DNA from: Acidimicrobiales bacterium
Lineage (GTDB): Bacteria; Actinomycetota; Acidimicrobiia; Acidimicrobiales; RAAP-2
Reading direction: 5' to 3'
Length of the DNA: 64,000 nucleotides
Assembly: GCA_025351385.1 (NCBI GenBank)
Contig: JANXWA010000024.1
Coordinates: 124,001 to 188,000 of the forward strand
Shown: positions 61,518 through 64,000 of the stretch, piece after piece
Position numbering within the stretch: the stretch's first letter is position 1
Layout of the letters: each line of letters opens with the position of its first letter
Position numbers and translations under genes: made by a program
Notes under the pieces: generated by a model
The model's input: the letters and a program-made list of their open reading frames with translations, nothing else
What the model was told of the DNA's origin: nothing
Database searches by the model: none

Positions 61518-61898
61518 TTAGTGGAACGACGAGCCGAACTTGTGCGGCTTCACCGGAGGCTTGCCGAGCGCCGTCAGGGCACTGGCGCGCGCGGCGGTGG
61601 CGTTGGCAATCGCCAGACGCATCGCGGCCCGGGCGGTGATCCGATCGGCCGAACTGGTGGCCGTTGCGAGGGCCGACTGATAGTCGGACTTGGCGACCGC
61701 GATCGCTTCGATGAAGGCCAGGTTGATCGCCTTCAGCTGCGTTCGGTACGCGTGCTCGGACGTCTGATACGCGTGAAGCGACGAGAAGGTCGTGGTGGTC
61801 GTCGTGTTGTTCCCGGCGAAGGCCACCACGGGCGTGCCTAGCGCGAGGGTCGCCACCATCGCCGCCGAGGCGATGCTTCGGATGGCGAATCTCTTCAT
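61518..61898 (-). CDS. Secreted Ala-rich helical-repeat protein, one unit
   Basis: The 126-residue product has a Sec signal peptide (MKRFAIRSIASAAMVATLALG..., cleavage near AFAG), a short Thr run, then one helical unit of about 75 residues. That unit runs from AYRTQLKAINLAFIEAI to LAIANATAARASALTALGKPP, and a His/Lys tail follows. The same unit occurs twice in the protein at 62164. I know no named domain for it. The ATG at 61898 follows GAAAGGG at a good distance and is preferred to an ATG 14 codons upstream. The promoter closely matches that of the paralogue. Confidence 0.75.
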   Translation of the reverse strand: MKRFAIRSIASAAMVATLALGTPVVAFAGNNTTTTTTFSSLHAYQTSEHAYRTQLKAINLAFIEAIAVAKSDYQSALATATSSADRITARAAMRLAIANATAARASALTALGKPPVKPHKFGSSFH

Positions 61899-61925: not shown

Positions 61926-61980
61926 ACAGTACCGAAACAACCTTTGAAATTCCTGTGAACTGGTTGATTATCTGTTGTGA
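61926..61980 (-). promoter_or_regulatory. Promoter with triple 11-bp-period repeats, upstream of the 61898 gene
   Basis: Read on the plus strand, CCTGTGA (61952-61958), GTTGATT (61963-61969) and GTTGTGA (61974-61980) are seven-base elements separated by four bases. A TACTGT -10 box lies at 61931-61926 on the minus strand, 21 positions from the first repeat. The sequence next to it, TTGAAATTCCTGTGA, is 14 of 15 identical to the paralogous promoter. Confidence 0.7.
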
Positions 61981-62113
61981 ACATGGACGCAGGTCGGACA
62001 AATGCTTCCAATCGTGCGCTCACGATGGCGAGGTCCGGGCCCCGTCTCTTGACGACAGTCCGTCAATGGGCCGGGTCGCGGGGCACTCGCCACACCAACA
62101 CGGGGTACAAGCA

Positions 62114-62147
62114 GATCGGCGCTGCCCTTGCGAGAGCAGCGCCGATC
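62114..62147 (-). terminator. Terminator hairpin after the 62164 gene
   Basis: GATCGGCGCTGC (62114-62125) and GCAGCGCCGATC (62136-62147) form a perfect 12-pair stem with a ten-base loop, extendable by GCA/TGC beyond a one-base bulge. It lies 16 bases past the stop codon of the minus-strand gene. A second, weaker hairpin (TTGACG/CGTCAA, 62049-62066) sits further on. The rest of 61981-62113 shows nothing gene-like. Confidence 0.7.
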
Positions 62148-62163
62148 GTGCACTACCTGGTGA

Positions 62164-62826
62164 CTACAGAGTCGTGGTGGTGACTGGAACCGTGGTCGTC
62201 GTGGTGTTCTTCACGGGCGGTGGTCCCAGGGTGGTCAGGGCCGCGGCACGGGCCACGGCGGCGTTGGCGATGGCCAGTTCCAGCGCGGCGCGTACGGTGG
62301 CACGCTCGGCCCGGGTGGAGGCCGAGGAGAAGTCGGCGGCGAAGGTCGCTTGCGCGGAGGCGACCGCGGTGCGATAGGCCTCATTGATCCCCTGCAGCGC
62401 AACGATGTAGGTCGATCGGGCGGTGCCGGCCGGAGGCGCCGGCGGGTTACCGAGCGCAGTCAACGCCGTAGAGCGCGCCCCCATCGCGTTGGCGATCGAC
62501 AGCGTCAGCGCAGCGCGGGCCGCGGCGATGAGGGCCGCGCGGTTGGCCGAGCCCTTGGACGCCTTCACGGCGTCGCGGAAGGCGTCGCGCGCCGTCTTGA
62601 CGGTGCTGTGAAACGTCTGGCGGATGACCTTCAGCTGATCGACGTAGGCCTGTTGAGCGTGACGCCACTGTTTCCAGGGATTGGTGACTGTCGCCTTGAC
62701 GGTCGTGGTCGTCCCGGGCACGGTGGTGGTCGTGGTGGTGTCGCCGAACGCCACAGCGGGAGTGGCAATTCCCAGCGCGGTGACGAGGGCGATGGCCACG
62801 ACACCTCGTGTCTTGATGCTCTTCAT
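62164..62826 (-). CDS. Secreted Ala-rich helical-repeat protein, two units
   Basis: The 220-residue product has a Sec signal peptide (MKSIKTRGVVAIALVTALGIA..., cleavage near AFGD), a Thr/Val linker, then two helical units of about 75 residues each. Unit A runs from AYVDQLKVIRQTF to LSIANAMGARSTALTALGNPP, and unit B from TYIVALQGINEAY to LAIANAAVARAAALTTLGPPP. A second Thr-rich tail (TTTTTVPVTTTTL) follows. Thr-rich tracts suggest a surface-exposed or glycosylated linker. There are no cysteines, lipobox or sortase signal. The ATG at 62826 follows GAAAGGGG. Function unknown. Confidence 0.78.
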   Translation of the reverse strand: MKSIKTRGVVAIALVTALGIATPAVAFGDTTTTTTVPGTTTTVKATVTNPWKQWRHAQQAYVDQLKVIRQTFHSTVKTARDAFRDAVKASKGSANRAALIAAARAALTLSIANAMGARSTALTALGNPPAPPAGTARSTYIVALQGINEAYRTAVASAQATFAADFSSASTRAERATVRAALELAIANAAVARAAALTTLGPPPVKNTTTTTVPVTTTTL

Positions 62827-62854
62827 GTGGACCCCTTTCAAAGGAACACTCTCC

Positions 62855-62909
62855 AAGGTAGGAGCAAAGGTTTTGAGATTCCTGTGAGGCGATTGTCGAT
62901 TGCCTGTGA
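62855..62909 (-). promoter_or_regulatory. Promoter with triple 11-bp-period repeats, upstream of the 62826 gene
   Basis: On the plus strand CCTGTGA (62881-62887), ATTGTCG (62892-62898) and CCTGTGA (62903-62909) have four-base spacers. The minus-strand -10 box TACCTT is at 62860-62855, again 21 positions from the first repeat. On the minus strand the outer repeats read TCACAGG, like the TCACAGC-N4-TCACAGC site of mycobacterial PhoP. Confidence 0.75.
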
Positions 62910-62956: not shown

Positions 62957-62986
62957 TACGCTCACAGCATGGCGGAAACGAGATGA
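62957..62986 (+). promoter_or_regulatory. -10 element and five-codon leader ORF before the response-regulator gene
   Basis: TACGCT (62957-62962), six bases, then ATG at 62969, which is out of frame with the regulator. It opens a frame of only five codons (Met-Ala-Glu-Thr-Arg) whose TGA (62984-62986) overlaps the regulator ATG at 62983. The regulator could thus be read by coupling from a leaderless mini-ORF. A single TCACAGC lies at 62962-62968. Confidence 0.45.
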
Positions 62987-63672
62987 CGACGATCCTCATC
63001 GTTGACGACGAGCCCGGGGTGCGCGACCTGCTTCACGACGCCCTCGAGAACGCAGGCTACGAGACCGAGCTCGCGTCCAACGGCGCCGAGGCCCTCGACC
63101 TGCTGCGCCGAAAGAGTGCCGACATCTGCATCGTGGACATCAACATGCCGATCATGAACGGCTTCGAGTTCCTCGAGCGCCTGCGCGAACACGACACCCA
63201 GACGCCGGTGCTCATGCTGTCGGCGAGGGACTCGGCCGATGACGTGGCTCAGGGACTGCGCTTCGGCGCCGATGACTACGTCCGCAAGCCCTTCAGCCTC
63301 GAGGAGATCCTGCTGCGCATCGCGGCTATCTTGCGCCGCTCGAACCCGGACGCCGGCGACGAGCTGGTCCTCGTGAGCGGGCCGATCGAGATGAACGTCG
63401 ACCGCCACGAGATCGCTGTCGACGGCGAGACCATCGACCTCTCAGCGACCGAGTTCCGGCTTCTCGAGGTGCTGCTCGAGCGCAAGGACCGTCTCGTCAC
63501 CCGTGAGCAGCTCTTGCGCGAGGTGTGGAACATCGACTTCGACTCCGAGACGTCGGTCCTCGACACCTACGTGTCGTACCTGCGTCGCAAGATCCATCAC
63601 GACGGGTTCGCGCCCATCACGACCGTGAGAGGCGTGGGCTTCAAGCTCGTCAGTCCGGACAGTCGAAAGTGA
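62983..63672 (+). CDS. OmpR/PhoB-family response regulator
   Basis: The 229-residue protein has a receiver domain with acidic pair Asp8-Asp9, phosphoacceptor Asp52 (CIVDINMP), Thr/Ser near 80 (MLSARDS) and Lys102 (YVRKPFS). A winged-helix DNA-binding domain from about 130 (LSATEFRLLEVLLERKDRLVTREQLL; SYLRRKIHHDGFAPITTVRGVGFKL) follows. It resembles MprA/PrrA/TcrX-type regulators of actinobacteria. It is coupled to the kinase gene (GTGA) and is divergent from the secreted-protein gene whose promoter has direct repeats of the kind this family binds. Confidence 0.94.
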   Translation: MTTILIVDDEPGVRDLLHDALENAGYETELASNGAEALDLLRRKSADICIVDINMPIMNGFEFLERLREHDTQTPVLMLSARDSADDVAQGLRFGADDYVRKPFSLEEILLRIAAILRRSNPDAGDELVLVSGPIEMNVDRHEIAVDGETIDLSATEFRLLEVLLERKDRLVTREQLLREVWNIDFDSETSVLDTYVSYLRRKIHHDGFAPITTVRGVGFKLVSPDSRK

Positions 63673-64000
63673 AGTTGGCGACACGCCTGACGATTCTGCT
63701 CGCCTGCCTGACGACCGTGGTGGCACTGTCGGTCGGCATGTACGCGGTCAACCTGAGCACCCGTTCCGAGTACGCCACGCTCGACGGCACCATCAACTCC
63801 GTGGTCGACAGCGGGCTGGGCCACCCCAATACGGCGCTCAGCGACGCGCTGAACGTCGTCCAGCAGCAGAACTACAATCTGACGCTCGACGTCATCGACC
63901 CCAGCAACACGGTCACCCAAATCAATTCGCCACCGGGAGCCCTCCGCAAGCACCCGACACTCGCCGACGCGAGGAACTCGCTCAGCCGAGTGAACACCTC
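63669..64000 (+). CDS. Sensor histidine kinase, 5' part
   Basis: About 110 residues are visible before the right edge. The start is GTG 63669, inside the regulator stop codon. A first membrane helix (residues about 6-27, LTILLACLTTVVALSVGMYAV) is followed by an extracytoplasmic sensor region rich in Asn, Asp and Ser (SEYATLDGTINSVVDSG; NYNLTLDVIDPSN). The second helix, HAMP, DHp and ATPase domains lie outside the window, so the kinase call rests on the coupling to the response regulator and the N-terminal layout. Confidence 0.75.
   Translation, partial: MKLATRLTILLACLTTVVALSVGMYAVNLSTRSEYATLDGTINSVVDSGLGHPNTALSDALNVVQQQNYNLTLDVIDPSNTVTQINSPPGALRKHPTLADARNSLSRVNT

Follow-up and report, generated by a model that had tools for sequence, protein, structure and literature searches.

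The direct-repeat arrays upstream of two secreted-protein genes, secA and secB, in an uncultured lineage of soil Acidimicrobiales are very probably operator sites of the OmpR/PhoP-type response regulator whose gene starts at position 62983, and would activate secreted helical-hairpin genes. We read the locus as most likely encoding an OmpR/PhoP-type two-component system that activates secreted proteins through four-element tandem operators, and we infer direct binding, activation rather than repression, the adjacent kinase as partner and the use of the -10 boxes.

Results

Four phased heptamers precede secA and secB

The window (the whole 64,000-nucleotide stretch of DNA analysed) comes from a genome of 2.18 Mb in 36 contigs. 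Among named records, the closest are metagenome-assembled Acidimicrobiales/Acidimicrobiaceae, and two of these carry palsa isolate names. The genes lie in the order ribBA-like, ribH, a small ORF, secA (61518-61898, 126 aa) and secB (62164-62826, 220 aa), the last two on the minus strand, these names being given by reading the translations without a family search. Divergent from secB, on the plus strand, are an OmpR/PhoB-family response regulator (62983-63672, 229 aa), which is the proposed binder of the arrays, and a histidine kinase (HisKA + HATPase_c) whose gene begins at 63669 and extends beyond the window end at 64000 (L056 7669-9018), followed by infC-, pheS- and pheT-like genes, likewise named from their translations. 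The regulator and kinase genes overlap by GTGA.

At both secreted-protein promoters, heptamers recur on the minus strand with a period of exactly 11 bp. Upstream of the secA -10 box (TACTGT, 61926-61931) stand element 4 (TCAAAGG, 61941-61947), which starts 16 nt before the -10, element 3 (TCACAGG, 61952-61958), the best conserved of the set, the degenerate element 2 (AATCAAC, 61963-61969) and element 1 (TCACAAC, 61974-61980), so that the coding strand reads TCACAAC AGAT AATCAAC CAGT TCACAGG AATT TCAAAGG. The secB promoter reads TCACAGG CAAT CGACAAT CGCC TCACAGG AATC TCAAAAC, with element 1 at 62903-62909, element 2 at 62892-62898, element 3 at 62881-62887 and element 4 at 62870-62876, again 16 nt upstream of the -10 box (TACCTT, 62855-62860). 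The original prediction had described three heptamers per array; their letters and coordinates all proved correct on re-reading, as did the distance of 21 positions between array and -10 at both promoters, but a fourth heptamer, lying between the described array and the -10, had been overlooked. The two promoters have TCACAGGAATYTCAAA exactly in common, a sequence that occurs nowhere else in the genome, and TCACA-N17-TCACAGG without mismatch likewise has only two matches genome-wide, one at each of these promoters. The arrays are therefore not chance matches. A looser scan of the same genome with two mismatches returned 20+36 matches against 24+18 in a reversed control, which is noise, and thus we claim no further targets in this genome from it.

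The array is conserved across the genus

An orthologue of the regulator was present in 52 of 61 genus genomes, and regulator-divergent promoters were collected from 50 loci. Among these 50, pairs of TCACA (at most one mismatch) were found at a spacing of 11 in 29 promoters (2.3 in shuffles), of 22 in 38 (2.2) and of 33 in 20 (2.1), with a smaller peak at 44 (11 promoters, 1.8 in shuffles); the 11, 22 and 33 peaks were also seen in 10 other promoters of the family. A weaker excess outside the 11-bp series was found at 20 bp (13/50 promoters, 2.2 in shuffles), which was the sole spacing off the series with z > 3.2. Unsupervised ungapped motif finding returned four phased elements genus-wide, with TCWCAG-type heptamers, an 11-bp period and the consensus TTCTCAgc.atcc..cAggc.ctTCACAGcg.TTTCACAa. 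Elements 1, 3 and 4 reached up to 1.5-1.8 bits per base, while the second element was degenerate and most spacers were near random, most of their bases holding 0-0.5 bits. The -10 was evident in the aligned promoters (T51 and A52 at 90% or more, T56 invariant). Since element 4 lies at a fixed distance from this -10, while the distance to the regulator's own start is widely variable (the array starts 28-83 nt away), the array is, judging by the alignment, anchored to the promoter of the secreted gene.

Absence of the repeats upstream of orthologues in related genomes would have spoken against the prediction; instead, 47 of the 52 regulator-bearing genomes kept the array in the divergent promoter, a count that is not independent in that most of these sites also trained the profile described below (R1). 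In the remaining five regulator-bearing genomes, R1 had no match in the divergent promoter. A search for the regulator in the wider order (E <= 1e-80) returned genomes of its own genus only, so that the footprint covers this genus.

Arrays precede further secreted-protein genes in relatives

R1 is a sequence-only profile built from 41 regulator-linked promoters, from which the own-genome secA promoter and all unlinked promoters were excluded. In the window's 2.18-Mb genome it recovered secA (E 7e-8) and secB (E 5e-7), and beyond these two no match below E 0.04. Across 62 genus genomes 77 matches passed E <= 0.01, where chance would give about 0.6; counted from the table, 48 belonged to regulator loci and four to a second secreted gene next door, while 25 lay elsewhere. 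The named relatives L109-L111 have the same locus, where R1 found five arrays, and the secB array of L109 is legible by eye. Twelve of the 25 regulator-unlinked sites precede hairpin-family genes, six a second secreted family (~240 aa, with a C-terminal GGYTGS/A), four secreted repeat proteins and two ComA-like enzymes (PF02679), while one, near a tRNA read by eye, has no clear gene. By eye, the protein downstream has a signal-peptide-like N-terminus at 22 of the 25. The expectation that further sites would stand before the same secreted family thus held for relatives, at loci unlinked to the regulator; in the genome that holds the window, no such site was added to those of secA and secB. The small system first proposed, of kinase, regulator and two secreted proteins, is broader than a pair: in relatives the array also stands before at least two more secreted families, and the kinase is assigned to the system by adjacency.

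The second secreted family (L145, L146, L147, L150, L152 and L159) was found in 11 of 62 genus genomes but not in the window's genome; Pfam gave no match for the member tested. The array-preceded secreted repeat proteins (L155, L157, L160 and L163) comprise four records from three or four genomes, and the repeats of L160 are of the type VxGxVTALTPxSGTPTSVTIQP. Two weak matches in the window's own genome are leads only: a four-element array with a TACCGT -10 before the gene of an orphan protein with a receiver domain (G000:C10:3085-3140, L114; E 0.04), and a match at G000:C10:18524 (L115; E 0.11) before a ComA-like enzyme. Three genomes, the window's own among them, have two-element sites before ComA-like (PF02679) genes (L115, L161 and L162), and dimer-like sites of the form TCWCAG-N5-TCYMAR are legible in front of many among 27 ComA orthologues. 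A spacing of 11 occurred in 7 of these 27 promoters against 1.7 expected, with other spacings raised equally, and 5 of 30 ComA loci matched R1 at E < 0.5. As these period statistics are weak and so few loci match, we keep the ComA-like genes as a candidate, a possible non-secreted member of the regulon.

The secreted proteins are predicted helical hairpins

SecA and SecB are secreted proteins in which a signal peptide and a Thr-rich linker precede one (SecA) or two (SecB) copies of a predicted helical-hairpin domain, which is Ala-rich and ends in A-R-x-x-A-L-x-x-L-G-x-x-P. In the AlphaFold2 model each domain forms a single antiparallel helical hairpin (mean pLDDT 73.5, pTM 0.56), with the helices of SecB at 50-89/96-125 and 136-168/172-200. 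The hairpin-family profile matched 48 of 62 genus genomes, and a search with the single protein, run over 24 other families in the order, returned no genome. Searches of the secreted family against Pfam, NCBIfam and PDB sequences returned nothing significant; a Foldseek search with the model found no hit at E <= 0.001, and VIA-align returned a generic helical list only. The family thus resembles no listed sequence or fold family. A box in the 5' leader, GTTCCTTTGAAAGGRG, is conserved before genes of the secreted family (62824-62848 in the window and, among unlinked loci, L030-L034, L149 and L152), and CCTTTGAAAGG forms an inverted repeat, which includes the ribosome-binding site.

Three of six PhoP base contacts are identical in the regulator's recognition helix

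The predicted OmpR-type regulator at 62983 was borne out by its receiver (PF00072, Response_reg, 5.2e-34) and DNA-binding domains (PF00486, Trans_reg_C, 1.2e-24), both above cut-off. Its nearest solved structures are RegX3, PhoP and PrrA of Mycobacterium tuberculosis, with RegX3 (171.7 bits by phmmer) slightly above PhoP (166.5), and it does not reach the NCBIfam cut-offs for PhoB (184.3 vs 296.2 bits) or MtrA (172 vs 300). On TCACAGC-N4-TCACAGC, M. tuberculosis PhoP sits as a tandem dimer; the 4-bp spacer is a strict requirement, and affinity is higher for repeats of three and four motifs (PMC4832192). The half-site and the 4-bp spacer of the present arrays match this arrangement (PMC4832192), in agreement with the OmpR/PhoP-family geometry originally claimed. 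In the PhoP-DNA structure, N212, V213, E215, S216, Y217 and Y220 read TCACAGC (PMC4832192), and the valine and the two tyrosines touch the 5' TC. Comparing the recognition helix of the present regulator with that of PhoP (SETSVLDTYVSYLRRK vs GDVNVVESYVSYLRRK), these six base contacts become S, V, D, T, Y and Y; only three are identical, and three are conservative. The conserved 5' TC of the half-site is in line with the kept V213, Y217 and Y220, and across the genus the recognition helix is invariant or conservatively changed.

A five-codon ORF overlaps the regulator's start

Directly after the regulator's own -10 box (TACGCT, 62957-62962, plus strand), the stretch 62957-62986 holds a mini-ORF, ATGGCGGAAACGAGATGA, of five codons (ATG GCG GAA ACG AGA TGA, 62969-62986, plus strand), which is putatively leaderless and overlaps the regulator's start codon. 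The arrangement recurs at about 37 of 50 genus loci: an ATG stands 6-7 nt beyond the regulator's -10, the ORF that it starts runs for exactly five codons, and the stop shares bases with the start codon of the regulator (ATGA, GTGA or TTGA), while the peptides themselves are not conserved in sequence. At such a short distance from the -10, this ATG probably marks the mRNA's 5' end. At five loci a leaderless ATG or GTG seems to lie in frame and to serve as the regulator's own start, and the remaining loci mostly have Shine-Dalgarno-like sequences instead. Mycobacteria commonly have leaderless transcripts (PMC4633059), and overlapping codons are known to couple genes (PMC6728339); the arrangement suggests that the regulator is under termination-reinitiation control. 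A coupling ORF of fixed five-codon length merits separate study.

Proposed mechanism and alternatives

In the mechanism we propose, the regulator would be phosphorylated, presumably by the adjacent kinase (assigned by gene adjacency), and would then bind the direct repeats head-to-tail, each heptamer taking one monomer and every two heptamers a pair. Elements 3 and 4, the proximal pair, would cover approximately -39 to -22, the position of a -35 box, and assist RNA polymerase at the -10 box 16 nt further, while the distal pair (elements 1 and 2) would contribute cooperative affinity. In this way the expression of secreted alpha-helical-hairpin proteins, in this genome SecA and SecB, would become switchable. 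The same overlap with the -35 position could be taken to mean that the regulator is a repressor, its occupancy of the -35 region and spacer blocking RNA polymerase. We consider this unlikely, given that no recognisable -35 hexamer can be read at these promoters and there would be nothing to mask, and that a constant spacing between element 4 and the -10 corresponds to the geometry known from class II activators such as PhoB. It is less probable still that the conservation reflects recent duplication and shared promoter ancestry rather than selection on binding sites. SecA and secB are indeed paralogues whose promoters have a 16-bp core in common, but the heptamers are kept across divergent genomes while spacers and flanks vary, an unrelated secreted family is preceded by the same array, and the excess of TCACA pairs falls at multiples of 11.

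The arrays might also be bound by another OmpR-family regulator, with the neighbour merely sharing the locus. The genome encodes about ten OmpR-type regulators above the family cut-off, among them a second PhoP-like one (L244, G000:C20; helix DPNIVEVYIGYLRRKI), which has N and E at the positions of PhoP N212 and E215 and is there closer to PhoP than the neighbouring regulator is. The motif was found in 49 of 52 genomes with the neighbouring regulator and in none of the nine without it (G006, G011, G013, G016, G019, G022, G064, G069 and G076), most of this co-occurrence being that of a promoter that physically adjoins the regulator and is lost together with the locus. Counting unlinked sites only, the contrast is 20 of 52 against 0 of 9, for which a hypergeometric estimate that ignores relatedness and genome size gives ~0.02. 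Every motif-bearing genome covered by both searches carries the neighbouring regulator. L244, in contrast, dissociates from the motif in both directions: three genomes have L244 with neither the motif nor the neighbouring regulator (G011, G019 and G069), and six have the motif and the neighbouring regulator without L244 (G012, G014, G018, G024, G030 and G062). By its distribution among these genomes, the motif follows the neighbouring regulator and not L244, because L244 and motif part both ways while the neighbour co-occurs; the placement in the divergent promoter favours the neighbour as well, and we regard a different binder as improbable.

Discussion

A literature search found no description of the present system, and the closest parallel is PhoPR of M. 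tuberculosis (PDB 3R0J, 5ED4), which has in common with it an OmpR/PhoB-family regulator, TCACAG-type heptamers, direct repeats and the strict 4-bp spacer; for PhoP, tandem trimer/tetramer binding on longer repeats is documented. Unlike the PhoP sites, most of the present ones have four elements, the second of them degenerate, and the putative regulon is a genus-specific set of secreted proteins. The Pho boxes of PhoB (E. coli) and PhoP (Streptomyces) are also direct repeats with an 11-bp period, and these replace the -35 region at activated promoters. The present heptamer differs from the Pho box, however, the regulator falls below the NCBIfam cut-off for PhoB, and the profile matches showed no connection with phosphate genes. 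As in CpxAR-CpxP-type systems, a gene for a small secreted alpha-helical protein is divergent from a regulator and kinase, although the present host is a monoderm actinobacterium. None of eight members of the secreted family passes the Pfam cut-off for LTXXQ (PF07813), the best value being E 0.14 for a single member, and compared with the cradle-shaped hairpin fold of CpxP/Spy, the SecB model consists of two helical hairpins (mean pLDDT 73.5) with generic helical matches only. A more speculative scheme, to which we give a low probability, is a genus-specific envelope circuit in which the secreted hairpin families would feed back on, or be ligands of, the co-encoded kinase, and the regulator would be metered by the leaderless five-codon mini-ORF via termination-reinitiation.

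PhoP/PhoB systems already display this architecture; the novelty lies in its lineage, in arrays that naturally have four elements and in a secreted regulon that is uncharacterised. The result is a testable link from regulator to operator to gene in an uncultured Acidimicrobiales lineage, drawn from its DNA alone. It would place PhoP-type tandem operators outside Mycobacterium, as natural four-element arrays, and would bring several secreted families without Pfam matches into one regulon, which narrows the search for their function.
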